Assembly: GCF_009789075.1 (NCBI RefSeq)
Contig: NZ_WNXQ01000009.1
Coordinates: 1-64,000, forward strand
Origin: Pseudooceanicola pacificus
GTDB lineage: Bacteria > Pseudomonadota > Alphaproteobacteria > Rhodobacterales > Rhodobacteraceae
Direction: 5' to 3'
Length of the DNA: 64,000 nt
The position numbers and the translations under genes are program-made. Under the pieces are notes generated by a model, which searched no databases, was not told the origin of the DNA, and saw only the letters and a program-made list of their open reading frames with translations. Shown here piece after piece: positions 28,622-34,117 of the stretch (positions within the stretch are counted from its first letter, which is position 1; each line of letters starts with the position of its first letter).

Positions 28622-29491
28622 CTAGAACCATTGGCCCGGTTCCATCAGCCCGAGGTCGAGCAGCTGGCGCGAGTGCCATTCGAAGGGCGCCGAGTTGTGC
28701 CAGCGGAAGGTCGGGATGTCGGAGGACGAGCCGGGGTTGCGCTTGAGCGCCTTGGCGGTCCGGAAGGAGCAGACCGCCGCGGTCAGGTTGTTGTGCCAGG
28801 GACAGGCGTAGGTGTTGTACTCTTCCTCGTTGAAGACATGGCCGGGCAGCAGCTTGAGCCCGGCGCGGGCGCGGAACAGCGAGATCCGGTCGATCTTGCG
28901 GCGGTTGGCGGGCACATGTTCCTCGAACCGCCAGCGCAGGCCGCCGAAGAAATCCAGCTGCCGCTCCTTGGGGTGGTTGTGATTGGCCGGGTCGCGGCGG
29001 GCGAGGGCGTAATAGCCCGACTTGTCGAGAAAGGCCTGCTGCGTCGAGACCGCGTTCGGGCAGGACTCGAGATCGCCGGCGTAGAGATCGACCACATAGG
29101 TCAGCATCGAGGCGCGCCGTTCCTCGGTCTGGAAGGTCAGCAGCTCGCCGACCGACCGTGTCTCGCAGAAGGGGAAGTAGAGGTATTCCGCGTTGTAGCA
29201 GTAGTAGAGCCAGATGCCGTTGGCCGCGTCGATGACGGCGTTCACCGCCGATTCCAGCGCGCCCTCGCGGGTCATGTCGTAGTCGATCCGCCAGCACAGG
29301 TGTTCCAGGTCGTCGGGCAGCTTGAACGCGGGATGGGCGAACAGGATCACCTCGGCAAAGCCCGCCACGCGGTGGTGGCGCAGGGTGGTGTCCAGTTCGA
29401 CGTCATCCTCGGCAAAGATCAGGGCGACGGGCCCCTTGGACAGGCATGGCTCGCTGGATTTGAGGAAGCTGTTGAGGTTTGGAAATCGCAT
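28622..29491 (-). CDS. Conserved protein, possible glycosyltransferase
   Basis: A 289-residue soluble protein. The N-terminal half has a nucleotide-sugar-like pattern ([20 protein letters not shown], then a hydrophobic strand VILFAHPAF), resembling glycosyltransferases of the GT2/GT92 type, but I cannot place the metal site with certainty. Later segments are rich in Trp, Tyr, His and Phe ([31 protein letters not shown]). No signal peptide or membrane segment. The ATG at 29491 gives [16 protein letters not shown]; the frame upstream is not conserved in character. Divergent from miaB, so it may have its own promoter in the 115-base gap. Confidence 0.6.
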
Positions 29492-29606
29492 CGTTGTCCC
29501 GGTCGTTTCGCCTGTGCCCCGCGGAGATTGGGTGCAATGGCCGATGATTGCAAGGCGGGGCGCTTTCGGTATAGGTAAGCGCCCTGAACCTGTGAGGGAC
29601 CTGCCC

Positions 29607-30926
29607 ATGGCCGAGGCGAGAAAGCTCTACATCCGCACCTATGGATGCCAGATGAACGTCTACGACAGCGAGCGCATGGCCGAGGCCCTGGGCGGGAACG
29701 GCTATGTCGAGGTGTCGAGCCCCGAAGAGGCCGACATGATCCTGCTGAACACTTGCCATATCCGCGAAAAGGCGGCCGAAAAGGTCTATTCCGAGCTGGG
29801 CCGCATGCGCGAGTTGAAGCTGGCGCGCCCCGATCTGAAGATCGGTGTCGCCGGCTGCGTGGCCCAGGCCGAGGGGGCCGAGATCATGCGCCGCCAGCCG
29901 ATGGTGGACCTGGTCGTCGGGCCGCAGAGCTATCACCGCCTGCCCGAGATGGAGCGCGAGGCGGGGCAGGGGGCCAAGGTGCTGGACACCGATTTCCCCG
30001 AAGAGGACAAGTTCGAAAAGCTCGAGGCCCGGCCCAAGGCGAAGCGCGGGCCCGCGGCATTCCTGACGGTGCAGGAGGGCTGCGACAAGTTCTGTGCCTT
30101 CTGCGTGGTGCCCTATACCCGCGGGGCCGAGGTCAGCCGCCCGGCCAGCCGCATCCTGGACGAGGCGCGCGACCTGGTCGACCGTGGCGTGCGCGAGATC
30201 ACCCTGCTGGGCCAGAACGTCAACGCCTATCACGGCGCCGGGCCCGATGGCGACTGGAGCCTGGCGCGGCTGATCCGCGAACTGGCCCGGATCGACGGGC
30301 TGGCGCGCATCCGCTTCACCACCAGTCATCCCAATGACATGGGCGACGACCTGATCGCGGCGCATGGCGAGTGCGACAAGCTGATGCCCTATCTGCACCT
30401 GCCGGTGCAATCCGGGTCTGACCGGATCCTGAAGCGGATGAACCGGCAGCACACGGCCGAGGGCTATCTGCGGCTGGTGGAGCGCATCCGGGCGGCGCGC
30501 CCGGATATCCTGCTGTCAGGCGATTTCATCGTCGGCTTTCCGGAAGAGACCGAGGCGGATTTCCAGGCCACGCTGGATCTGATCGAGGCGGTCGGCTACG
30601 GCAGCGCCTTCAGTTTCAAGTATTCGACCCGGCCGGGCACGCCGGCGGCGGAACGCCCCCAGGTCGCGGAGGCCGAGAAGGACGAGCGCCTGCAGCGGCT
30701 GCAGGCCCTGATCACCCGCCAGCAGCGCGCCGCGCAGGATGGCATGGTCGGGCGCGAGGTCGGCGTGCTGTTCGAGAAACCGGGGCGTATGCCCGGGCAG
30801 ATGATCGGCAAGTCGGATTACCTGCATTCCGTTGTGGTCGACGGGCCGGCGCCCGAGGCGGGCACGCTGTCGCGGGTGCGAATCCTTGCAAGCCATCCCA
30901 ATTCGCTTCTGGGCGAGTGCATCTGA
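29607..30926 (+). CDS. miaB: tRNA-2-methylthio-N6-dimethylallyladenosine synthase MiaB
   Basis: A 439-residue radical-SAM methylthiotransferase. The N-terminal domain carries cysteines in TYGCQMN, NTCHIRE and VAGCVAQ (auxiliary cluster), the radical-SAM motif is CDKFCAFC (C159, C163, C166), and a TRAM domain closes the protein. It adds a methylthio group to i6A37 of tRNAs. In related genomes it is normally followed by phoH; here three genes for exported proteins come between. Confidence 0.94.
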
Positions 30927-31077: not shown

Positions 31078-31259
31078 CATCACGTCATGAGTCTGGCTTT
31101 GCGGCAGGCGACTTTCCGCGAGTGGGGCTCATGTCATCCGATGGACTGGCATGACCTGACACAGCGCTGTCGGGGCTGTGATGAACATGCCCCGGCACTG
31201 ATGGGCCGGGTGTGTCTTCCGTCAAGACTGGGTCATCACATAAGCCTGGGGGGCTTGAC

Positions 31260-31577
31260 ATGAAACTAGCGATCCTGACCGCGCTTGCGGTCGCCGGACT
31301 GGCGACCGAGGCGCCTGCACACGACTATGCCTACACGTTCCAACCTTCGAACCACGTCATCGTGGTCAGCTGCTATCGCGGCCCTTGGAAACAGGTGATC
31401 TGGGATCACCCGAACGCCAAGTTCATCGATAGCCTGGTGGCCATCGGCTATGACTTCCCGACGTCGGAAGCGATTGCCAACCGGATCTGCCGTGACCAGA
31501 ACCTCGTCTTCGATCCCGAAGGCCTGAAGGCCACGATGAAGCGGATCTACATGAGCTCGCCCGTCAGCAAGAGCTGA
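31260..31577 (+). CDS. Small exported protein, unrecognised
   Basis: A 105-residue protein with a short Sec signal (MKLAILTALAVAGLATEAPA, cleaved near 20). The mature part has a pair of cysteines (VSCYRGPWKQ and NRICRDQN) that could form a disulfide. Not recognised. It is the first of three exported-protein genes inserted between miaB and phoH, and has its own promoter. The upstream in-frame ATG at 31212 would spoil the signal peptide. Confidence 0.65.
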   Translation: MKLAILTALAVAGLATEAPAHDYAYTFQPSNHVIVVSCYRGPWKQVIWDHPNAKFIDSLVAIGYDFPTSEAIANRICRDQNLVFDPEGLKATMKRIYMSSPVSKS

Positions 31578-32040
31578 TACGGGCACGTCGACCGGGCCGG
31601 TCCCTCCGGGGGCGGCACTGGTCGCCGCAATACCACGGCCGCGCAGACAATCCGCGCGGGCAGCGTCACAGCCGGGCGTATGGGTGGGGGCACCCGCTGA
31701 ACGGCAGGACGACAGGCCAGGCGCCTGAAAACGCCACGGGCGAGAATCATATTTTCGCCATGCAATCGCCATGAACCGGCGATTAAGTCATAAAAATTGC
31801 CAAAATCTTACCAGCGCCGGATCGGGGAAAGCCCCGAAACCGGCCGATAGCATGGTGTTTCGGGAACAATGCTATCAAACCAAGGTCTCTGGTTCGATCT
31901 GCGACACAATATGTGGTGAAATATCCTTCACTTTGTGGCATTAGGCGGTAAGGTATCAATCAGACTAAAATCATTTGGACCCGCATCGCTGTCATCGGCG
32001 GTCTCGCGCGGGTCCGGGGGACCGACAAAGGATTACCGCC
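31578..32040. other. 463-base intergenic region before the OmpA-like gene
   Basis: No gene recognised. Unusually AT-rich for the window between 31770 and 31980. Contains a small GC hairpin (CGGGG-AAAG-CCCCG at 31823-31836) and the inverted repeat GATAGCAT/ATGCTATC (31846-31876). The promoter of the OmpA-like gene is likely here, but I could not fix it. Confidence 0.45.
31846..31876. promoter_or_regulatory. Inverted repeat GATAGCAT-N15-ATGCTATC
   Basis: A perfect 8-bp inverted repeat with 15-base spacing (centres about 23 bases apart), 165 bases before the OmpA-like start. No T-run follows. Operator or RNA stem; role unknown. Confidence 0.4.
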
Positions 32041-32598
32041 GTGGCGAAACTGCTCTTCAGAACCATTTCGAGCGTCGCGGGTGCTGTGGCAGCCGCCGTG
32101 TTCGCAACCCTCGTCAGCTCGGCGCCCGCAATGGCGCAGAGCGAGCCCTATATTCCCACCATCTGGGTCGATCCCGATGGCTGCGAACACTGGGCGATGG
32201 ATGACGGTGCCGAGGGGTACATGACCCCGCATGTCAACCGCCAGGGGATCCCGGTCTGCCGCCGGGGCAACGTCTGCGGCGTGATGAACACCGACCAGTT
32301 CTTTGCCACCGATAAATACTGGATCAGCCCGGCCAACCAGCAGCGCCTGGCACAGTTCTTCAAATCGGCCAATGCGACCTCGTTCATCATCGTGGGTCAC
32401 ACCGACAGCCGGGCTTCGGACGAATACAACATGAAGCTCAGCTACAACCGCGCCAATGCCGTGGCCAAGGTCGCCGCATCGACCGGCGCCAAGATCGCCG
32501 ACGTGCGCGGCTATGGCGAGCGTATGCCGCGCGCCTCCAATGGCACCGCGGCCGGCATGGCGCAGAACCGCCGCGTCGAAATCATCTGCATCCGCTGA
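32041..32598 (+). CDS. OmpA-family exported protein with WVDPxGCxHW motif
   Basis: A 185-residue protein. Sec signal at ~1-32 (ending PAMAQ). Residues ~40-75 hold IWVDPDGCEHWAMDDGAEGY and GIPVC, a segment shared with the lipoprotein encoded next. Residues ~95-185 are an OmpA C-terminal (peptidoglycan-binding) domain: VGHTDSRASDEYN, the family's LSYNRANAVA, and QNRRVEI. It thus probably tethers to the cell wall from the periplasm or outer membrane. The GTG start at 32041 has AAAGGA 8 bases before; no ATG fits the signal. Confidence 0.78.
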   Translation: MAKLLFRTISSVAGAVAAAVFATLVSSAPAMAQSEPYIPTIWVDPDGCEHWAMDDGAEGYMTPHVNRQGIPVCRRGNVCGVMNTDQFFATDKYWISPANQQRLAQFFKSANATSFIIVGHTDSRASDEYNMKLSYNRANAVAKVAASTGAKIADVRGYGERMPRASNGTAAGMAQNRRVEIICIR

Positions 32599-32612
32599 GA
32601 GGGGACCACCCA

Positions 32613-32945
32613 ATGAACATCGTCAAGACCATCGCGGGTGTCGGCCTCATCGGCTCCATTGCCGCGTGCCACCCGGTGCCCGTGCCGGGCGACAAGAGCC
32701 GCGACTACGGTTTCAACAGCCACCACCTGAGCACCATGAAAGCCGGCATCTGGGTCGACCCGAACGGCTGCGATCACTGGATCATCGACGACGGCCTCGA
32801 AGGCTACCTGTCGCAGCGGCTCGACCCCTATGGCAAGCCGGTCTGCTCGGGCGTGGCCCCGCCGAACACCGCCAACGGTCCGTTCAAGCGGGCCGGGTCG
32901 ATCACCGACCCCTCGTCGGGCACGGTGAAGAAGACCTCGGGCTGA
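32613..32945 (+). CDS. Lipoprotein with WVDPxGCxHW motif
   Basis: A 110-residue predicted lipoprotein: signal with lipobox GSIAAC (cysteine at 19). The mature part contains IWVDPNGCDHWIIDDGLEGY and GKPVC, matching the neighbouring OmpA-family protein residue by residue in spacing. It has no OmpA domain. Fourteen bases separate the two genes and a terminator closes the pair, so they are one transcript and probably partners in the envelope. Function unknown. Confidence 0.72.
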   Translation: MNIVKTIAGVGLIGSIAACHPVPVPGDKSRDYGFNSHHLSTMKAGIWVDPNGCDHWIIDDGLEGYLSQRLDPYGKPVCSGVAPPNTANGPFKRAGSITDPSSGTVKKTSG

Positions 32946-32981
32946 GGCGACGGCGCGTGAGGCGCGACATATCGAACAAGG

Positions 32982-33014
32982 ATGCCGCAGGGGGAAACGC
33001 CTGCGGCATTTTTC
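32982..33014 (+). terminator. Terminator of the WVDP gene pair
   Basis: ATGCCGCAGG / CCTGCGGCAT, 10-bp perfect stem with 8-base loop, followed by TTTT. Confidence 0.9.
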
Positions 33015-33103: not shown

Positions 33104-34117
33104 TTGGCCACCACAGTGCTGCCCCCGCCGATGGACGATACTGCACTCAGCGAAGTCCAGATCGACTTTCCAGACAATTTCCTGCTGATCGCGTTGTGCG
33201 GCGAATACGACCGCAATCTTGCCGAGATCGAACAGAAGCTCTCGGTCCAGATTCTCAGGCGCGGCAATCACCTGGTGGCCATCGGTGAAAAGGATGCGGC
33301 GGATCGCACGATTGCCCTGCTCAAGTCGCTCTATTCCCGCCTTGAGGCCGGGCGCGAGGTCGGATCGGCCGATATCGACCGCGAGCTGCGGATGAACGCG
33401 CCGGAACCTCAGCGCCCCACCCGTGACGGGAACCAGTTCGAGATGTTCTCGGCCGGCCAGGTCGAGATCAAGACCCGCAAGAAGATGGTCGAGCCCCGGA
33501 CGGAGGCGCAGAAGGCCTATGTCCAGAACCTGTTCCAGAACGAGCTCTGCTTTGGCATCGGCCCGGCGGGCACCGGCAAGACCTACCTCGCCGTGGCCGT
33601 GGGCGTGTCGATGTTCATCGAGGGGCATGTCGACAAGATCATCCTGTCCCGTCCCGCCGTCGAGGCGGGCGAAAAGCTGGGCTATCTGCCCGGCGACATG
33701 AAGGACAAGGTCGATCCCTACATGCAGCCGCTCTATGACGCGCTGAACGATTTCCTCCCCGGCAAGCAGTTGCAGAAGATGATGGAGGAAAAGACCATCG
33801 AGATCGCGCCGCTGGCCTTCATGCGGGGGCGGACGCTGTCGAATGCCTTTGTCGTGCTCGACGAGGCGCAGAACGCGACCACGATGCAGATGAAGATGTT
33901 CCTGACCCGCCTGGGCGAGGGGTCGCGCATGGTGATCACCGGCGACCGCACCCAGGTCGACCTGCCGCGCGGCGTCTCCTCGGGCCTGTCGGATGCCGAG
34001 CGGATCCTCAAGGCCATCCCCCGGATCAGCTTCAACTATTTCACCGCCAAGGATGTCGTGCGCCACCCGCTGGTGGCCGCGATCATCGAAGCCTACGACG
34101 CCGACGCCCCAGCCTGA
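33104..34117 (+). CDS. PhoH family ATPase (PhoL/YbeZ type)
   Basis: A 337-residue PhoH-like protein. An N-terminal KH-like region precedes the P-loop GPAGTGKT (~153-160) and Walker B VVLDEAQNAT (~249-258), with ITGDRTQVDLP as motif III. In this conserved order the protein works with YbeY, encoded downstream, in RNA/ribosome maintenance. The start is the TTG at 33104, supported by AAGGAG six bases before; the protein then reads MATTVLPPP. Confidence 0.9.
   Translation: MATTVLPPPMDDTALSEVQIDFPDNFLLIALCGEYDRNLAEIEQKLSVQILRRGNHLVAIGEKDAADRTIALLKSLYSRLEAGREVGSADIDRELRMNAPEPQRPTRDGNQFEMFSAGQVEIKTRKKMVEPRTEAQKAYVQNLFQNELCFGIGPAGTGKTYLAVAVGVSMFIEGHVDKIILSRPAVEAGEKLGYLPGDMKDKVDPYMQPLYDALNDFLPGKQLQKMMEEKTIEIAPLAFMRGRTLSNAFVVLDEAQNATTMQMKMFLTRLGEGSRMVITGDRTQVDLPRGVSSGLSDAERILKAIPRISFNYFTAKDVVRHPLVAAIIEAYDADAPA

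Follow-up and report, generated by a model that had tools for sequence, protein, structure and literature searches.

Among the described systems that resemble the locus analysed here, Pal combines a peptidoglycan-binding-type OmpA domain with an outer-membrane lipid anchor, and the YiaD/YfiB-type OmpA-like lipoproteins are lipidated themselves. In OmpA domains, the Asp of the GHTD motif and the Arg of the LSxxRA motif serve the diaminopimelate residue. The DUF6440 domain family (PF20037) is known but uncharacterised, and was named in no paper found in the open-access literature searched. In the Rhodobacterales, the accessible part of one report describes DalA (RSP_1200) of Rhodobacter sphaeroides as a Rhodobacterales-enriched outer-membrane lipoprotein which binds peptidoglycan and co-precipitates the OmpA-family protein RSP_1033 (PMC10470522), while DalA is annotated with SCP/PR1 domains in the accessible part of another (PMC9275681).

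Here we describe adjacent genes for an OmpA-family protein and a small lipoprotein in a stretch of 64,000 nucleotides from Pseudooceanicola pacificus (the window; Table 1). The pair shares with Pal the OmpA domain type and the lipid anchor, but these are placed on two proteins. The OmpA-family protein is not Pal itself, scoring 58.6 with TIGR02802 (cut-off 125.35) and having no cysteine before residue 48, and although YiaD/YfiB-type proteins are the top NCBIfam match and are among the top PDB matches of its OmpA domain, the NCBIfam scores are far below the cut-offs (96.6 vs 175, and 73.1 vs 128). The lipoprotein is not DalA as described in those accessible parts, since it lacks SCP/PR1 and matches no Pfam family at E-values up to 1, whereas RSP_1033 may or may not be the OmpA partner of a pair of the window's type. 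The main text of a D. shibae vesicle proteomics study names only Dshi_1012 (methionine adenosyltransferase) from the range Dshi_0990-Dshi_1019 (PMC7901474), and in the accessible parts of the open-access literature searched we found no earlier report of the adjacent ompA-lipoprotein pair.

Table 1. Features of the ompA-lipoprotein locus, in positions of the window
Feature	Position	Strand	Remarks
Dyad TGGTGAA-N5-CTTCAC upstream of ompA, possible operator	31914..31931	+	sole exact copy in genome
OmpA-family protein gene	32041..32598	+	GTG start, 185 aa
Shared segment, OmpA-family protein (IWVDPDGC...PVC; Cys48, Cys73)	32161..32259	+	BLASTP and alignment
Cys79, third cysteine of OmpA-family protein	32275..32277	+	co-occurs with Cys183
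OmpA domain with GHTD Asp and LSxxRA Arg	32299..32571	+	PF00691
Cys183, OmpA-family protein	32587-32589	+	co-occurs with Cys79
Lipoprotein gene	32613..32945	+	110 aa
Shared segment, lipoprotein (Cys53, Cys78)	32748..32846	+	BLASTP and alignment
Hairpin into T-run before phoH, probable intrinsic terminator	32978..33013	+	-25.7 kcal/mol, z -5.4
phoH, neighbour downstream of the pair	33104..34117	+	PF02562, 310.2 bits

Two adjacent envelope proteins share a segment

The two genes are on one strand, with a gap of 14 bases between them. By inspection, the OmpA-family protein has a Sec-type signal peptide (approximately residues 1-33, ending AMA-Q) without a lipobox, followed by the shared segment (residues 41-73) and the OmpA domain (residues 87-177). 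The latter matches PF00691 with 50.5 bits, above the Pfam gathering cut-off of 27.2, and could be aligned to OprF and YiaD chains; its GHTD Asp and LSxxRA Arg line up with OprF and are invariant in an alignment of 57 rows. The lipoprotein consists of a lipobox (IAAC, by inspection) with Cys19, which is invariant in an alignment of 19 rows, then the segment and then a tail. The earlier note had thus correctly assigned a peptidoglycan-binding-type OmpA domain to one partner and a lipid anchor to the other.

The segment which that note had seen in both proteins is real: residues 41-73 of the OmpA-family protein and 46-78 of the lipoprotein align by BLASTP without gaps and with 19 of 33 residues identical (58%; E 8e-15 as a single comparison), and the spacing to the PVC sequence is equal in both. 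Chance similarity is ruled out by this comparison, by the genome search and by the permuted controls described below. There was no convincing third copy in the window's genome (66.85% complete), where the next two matches had E-values of 0.45 and 0.87. None of the Pfam and NCBIfam models reached its cut-off on the segment, and a search of the PDB with the segment sequence profile gave nothing meaningful (best E 0.35, over ten residues).

Distribution and genomic organisation

The segment profile matches 106 of 149 genomes of the order, with two copies in 92 of these, one copy in 12 (all from one genus), three copies in one and four in one. At the class level, where up to 19 candidates were scored per genome, at least six of 387 genomes match, all from the family of the window, the Rhodobacteraceae. 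The named loci, from Pseudooceanicola, Shimia, Roseovarius, Thalassovita and others, are the best 80 of at least 568 confirmed ones and are therefore close relatives; in all 80 the lipoprotein gene immediately follows ompA on the same strand, and the pair is preceded by miaB in 79 and followed by phoH in 78. The deposited sequences of two of these loci (L136 and L164) have an interrupted OmpA frame. In a hand-selected set of 40 diverse loci, 37 adjoin miaB or phoH. Eight plasmid records also match, and both annotated ones that were inspected carry the pair: on the Ruegeria pomeroyi megaplasmid it lies within the block miaB-ompA-lipoprotein-phoH-ybeY-lnt, annotated as an OmpA family protein and a hypothetical protein, and on the Thioclava plasmid it lies between miaB and phoH.

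Several lineages depart from this organisation. In two genomes (L065 and L066) the protein encoded in place of the OmpA-type one retains the segment and is without an OmpA domain. At another location, a 92-residue protein in L067 has little beyond an anchor and the segment, and the OmpA partner in L068 carries its own lipobox and appears lipidated. In the single-copy genus, for which five loci from its twelve genomes were inspected (L196, L197, L198, L202 and L203), there is a lone segment lipoprotein without an OmpA partner nearby, and in four of the five it has common neighbours unrelated to miaB-phoH. As some lineages have the segment without the OmpA domain, the segment is the constant part rather than the wall-binding domain, and the wall-binding half is dispensable in the lineages without OmpA domain or with a lone lipoprotein. 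The expectation that the segment would not occur widely without its pairing hence holds in all of the 80 best of at least 568 loci, and fails in one genus and in the phage relatives described below.

Some further features of these loci were recorded. The pair has a second location at positions 5057-5687 of L067 and 4810-5753 of L068, next to genes which we take to be mnmA, ctrA and ligA. In the window, a small secreted-looking protein with two cysteines in its mature part is encoded between miaB and ompA (31254-31577, plus strand); no Pfam or NCBIfam family matched it over cut-off, and a relative in either orientation is present in six of the 80 named loci (the best of at least 568). An uncharacterised gene divergent from miaB (28622-29608, minus strand) is present in 76 of the same 80.

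Conserved cysteines and predicted fold

Among close relatives the DP-GC-HW-DDG residues of the segment are invariant or nearly so. One alignment was collected with a pattern requiring parts of the motif, and invariance of the motif in that alignment is thus partly by construction; a set of 78 proteins found by BLAST in the 40 diverse loci is a fairer test of conservation. In this set both segment cysteines are kept in 77 proteins, and the remaining one is truncated at the end of its contig, in agreement with the conserved cysteine pair claimed earlier. The His position has H in 58 of 77 proteins and otherwise V, N, T, I, Y, F, R, A or S, and the first Asp of the segment varies too.

The mature lipoprotein contains the two cysteines of the segment and the lipidated one, and four cysteines are invariant in the OmpA-type alignment of 57 rows. 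The additional two, of the Cys79 and Cys183 type, occur together in 109 of 111 distinct OmpA-type proteins, the exceptions being L068 with neither and L185 with only the first, whereas among 127 segment proteins in which no OmpA domain was recognised 126 have no further cysteine; the remaining one (L069), with an interrupted OmpA frame, has one. The extra pair therefore tracks the OmpA domain, which suggests one disulfide for the segment (this would be Cys48-Cys73 in the OmpA-family protein and Cys53-Cys78 in the lipoprotein) and a second, probably Cys79-Cys183 to judge from this co-occurrence, which clamps the OmpA domain.

The structure prediction of the segment proposed in the earlier note gave strands E7-10, E16-19 and E25-27 in one model and E25-30, E36-41 and E46-50 in the other, pointing with low confidence to a three-stranded beta meander with its cysteines paired, as the segment has weak pLDDT values (around 50 in the OmpA-family protein, 59-79 in the lipoprotein). 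A fold search with the weak lipoprotein model gave nothing at E-values up to 0.001.

The segment resembles the DUF6440 group

In an hmmscan search 38 of 60 lipoproteins matched DUF6440 at E-values up to 5 (best E 0.0052), with the match extending to the end of the model. The window's lipoprotein alone gave no match within this limit, its segment scored 11.6 bits, and none of the tested proteins reached the cut-off of 26.5 (best 17.0 bits). Because the lipoproteins graze this family, DUF6440 sequences were collected for comparison. DUF6440 is found over cut-off in four of 299 Proteobacterial genomes, and 14 phage records and two plasmids resemble one Proteobacterial DUF6440 protein at E-values up to 1; of eight DUF6440-type proteins rescanned, five were above the Pfam cut-off and three below (25.9, 25.3 and 17.2 bits).

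The segment profile aligned with 12 DUF6440-type sequences in hhalign with probability 96 and a score of 37.6, cysteine on cysteine, and the lipoprotein alignment with probability 91 and a score of 33.3. Column-permuted controls reached at most 16.3 (n=150), or 19.2 when the G-C and C columns were kept (n=200), and the reversed profile gave 8.1. The score was 37.3 without row L207, 34.4 with the phage and plasmid two-cysteine rows alone, 29.7 with the four Pfam-found rows alone (22.6 for three of them without L207) and 20.8 with two cysteine-free rows alone. With a score far above all 350 permuted controls, the segment has relatives in the DUF6440 group, in particular among the two-cysteine versions that follow a membrane anchor or lipobox in phages and some Proteobacteria. 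A plain HMM of the DUF6440 set scored 59 of 60 lipoproteins (median 11.9, best 16.0 bits), mostly above the best of 2340 shuffled decoys (9.2), and 43 of 57 OmpA-type proteins (median 6.0 bits), most of which were not above the decoys.

The motif D-x-x-T-G-C-x-Y-L ... G-[LIV]-T-P-R-L ... G-x-x-x-C of DUF6440 has its counterpart in D-P-x-G-C-x-H-W ... G-Y-[LM]-[ST]-x-R-L ... G-x-P-V-C of the segment, with cysteine on cysteine. The two forms differ in that DUF6440 has YL-GG and the Rhodobacteraceae segments have HW-DDG-EGY, and in that the latter continue into an OmpA domain or a lipoprotein tail and occur as an adjacent pair. Across the related sequences from phages, plasmids and Proteobacteria, invariance is confined to D5, G9, Y12 and G30, and Tyr takes the place of the His. 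Eight two-cysteine DUF6440-type proteins, whose N-termini were inspected by eye, have TGC-YL ... G-x-x-x-C (one with NGC for TGC) behind a transmembrane helix, signal peptide or lipobox, and a further two were inspected over part of their length. Neither of the aligned cysteines is present in two Firmicutes forms, which have no export signal and otherwise retain the motif. Both proteins of the pair have the two cysteines and the export signal (by inspection) of this two-cysteine exported branch, and it is well supported that the segment belongs to the DUF6440 group, as a small, exported branch which would be disulfide-stapled. No structure of the family was found by a DUF6440 profile search of the PDB.

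The phage side of this kinship comprises PHROGs 11767, 14094 and 8801, of uncharacterised function, the first of which is grazed by the window's lipoprotein (phrog_11767, E 0.028). A scan of viral contigs with two patterns, of which one contains the first cysteine and neither contains the second, kept 80 loci; 65 of these were readable, and both cysteines are present in 56 of 56 distinct proteins. Upstream of the segment 52 of the 56 have a hydrophobic stretch, two have only a lipobox and two, with short frames, have neither. Many of the proteins on these viral contigs (L231-L310) are tiny anchored or lipoprotein forms, often with a DDTDPP-RSGL-like linker. The Rhodobacteraceae form was confirmed in none of 52 pattern matches in viral contigs and had no match in the phage records.

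The segment had earlier not been recognised as a named domain, which stands as far as the profile search with library models is concerned, as none is over its cut-off, but has to be amended by the profile-profile comparison, in which its similarity to the DUF6440 group clearly exceeds that of the controls. With DUF6440 uncharacterised, this does not make the segment part of a known characterised domain.

Co-variation of the two segments

One OmpA-type protein and one lipoprotein were present in 105 of 120 loci, 103 of them with phoH. Over these 103 loci, the distances of the two segments correlate with 0.89 (0.88 given phoH), while the segment of the OmpA-type protein correlates with its own OmpA domain with 0.69, and correlation with phoH is approximately 0.3. 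When the divergent ADGG clade is left out (92 loci) and phoH is controlled for, the correlation is 0.58 for segment-segment vs 0.43 for segment-domain (Mantel test 0/1000), and for 74 of the named loci (the best 80 of at least 568) the corresponding values are 0.65 vs 0.44. In 18 diverse loci outside the ADGG clade the partial correlations show no real difference (0.42 vs 0.40), and there the lipoprotein segment correlates better with the OmpA domain (0.47) than with the other segment.

Identity between OmpA and lipoprotein segments is about the same within genomes (0.555) and between genomes (0.553), with 0.50 and 0.48 in the ADGG clade; there is thus no sign of gene conversion between the segments, making it an unlikely cause of the co-variation. 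In six ADGG loci shown, a loop at the same place in the two segments has one additional residue, which both segments of six others shown lack; exceptions are L065 and L066, with the longer loop in the lipoprotein only.

A probable two-gene transcription unit

A hairpin running into a T-run follows the lipoprotein gene (Table 1), and although it was not among the sites of a consensus terminator scan, a terminator-like site between the lipoprotein gene and phoH is present in 61 of 79 named loci (from the best 80 of at least 568) vs one of 79 shuffled sequences. This conservation suggests that the pair is probably a self-contained two-gene unit, and the hairpin is probably the intrinsic terminator closing it.

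Upstream of ompA, CACAATATG precedes the dyad TGGTGAA-N5-CTTCAC. Its core GTGAA-N6-TTCAC, allowing at most one mismatch, is found at a similar distance in 27 of 75 upstream regions vs two of 75 in a single base-composition shuffle, and the dyad is possibly an operator, which may be dedicated to the pair. No regulon can be inferred, as the extended dyad is unique in the genome. Control by CenR via TGA-N8-TGA, as given in the accessible part of PMC9275681, was rejected, since the dyad is an inverted and not a direct repeat.

A possible split tether between outer membrane and cell wall

With a probable wall grip on one protein, the lipid anchor on the other and a common, co-inherited and co-varying domain on both, the pair is most simply read as a split tether that would be joined through the segments. 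The OmpA-type protein of the Rhodobacteraceae would be periplasmic and bind peptidoglycan without a membrane anchor of its own, the lipoprotein would provide the outer-membrane anchor without a wall-binding domain, and the two segment copies would contact one another directly or hold a single partner from either side, so that a Pal-like job is split over two genes of one operon. We give an even chance to this two-part tether joined through DUF6440-like, disulfide-stapled segments. The paired complex suggested in the earlier note fits with this, as the pair stays together and co-varies, from which a direct contact may be inferred.

It is somewhat unlikely that the segments do not touch and that each independently recognises one common third partner, which could be peptidoglycan, LPS, a divisome protein or a Tol-Pal-like one, with the co-variation following that partner. 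The phages in which the related domain stands by itself after a membrane anchor or lipobox, and the genus with a lone lipoprotein, would fit this reading, but the conserved pairing and order in the 80 best of at least 568 loci argue against it, as do the paired copies on both inspected annotated plasmids and, in the larger sets, the co-variation of the two segments in excess of that seen for phoH and the OmpA domain.

That the co-variation arises merely because a small operon is inherited, and also transferred, as a linked unit, without any interaction, is improbable. A compact two-gene unit present on chromosomes and plasmids means that both genes share one history, which may differ from that of phoH; however, the segment and OmpA domain within a single gene should have a closer history still, and yet have the lower correlation in the larger sets, an argument weakened by the diverse 18-locus subset in which the values hardly differ. 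Similarly improbable is the metal or glycan site of His, Trp and Asp residues put forward in the earlier note. The near-invariance of DP-GC-HW-DDG among close relatives would fit such a site, and one of 39 segments weakly matches the calcium-binding Excalibur model (E 0.13), which does not make the segment an Excalibur domain; 19 of 77 proteins from diverse loci have another residue in place of the His, the first Asp is variable and the phage, plasmid and Proteobacterial relatives have Tyr instead of His, and with this variation the site is not supported. Redox-active thiols acting on envelope proteins are very improbable, as the cysteines, although both kept in all diverse-locus proteins apart from the one truncated by its contig, are 25-26 residues apart without a CxxC motif, there was no thioredoxin-like model among the Pfam and NCBIfam matches, and the two Firmicutes relatives without the aligned cysteines keep the remaining motif, as for a staple.

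Beyond the split tether, a broader and rather doubtful extension is that the two-cysteine DUF6440-type domain serves bacteria and phages alike as a general docking module in the periplasm; the Rhodobacteraceae version of the domain would have been duplicated to heterodimerise as a tether joint, while the free-standing, membrane-anchored phage copies would engage a conserved envelope partner in their hosts (other Proteobacteria and Bacilli). The pair provides a first biological setting for a domain group without assigned function which recurs in phages, plasmids and bacterial chromosomes, and as a conserved, small and compact two-gene unit it is a testable candidate for the linkage between outer membrane and cell wall in the Rhodobacteraceae.
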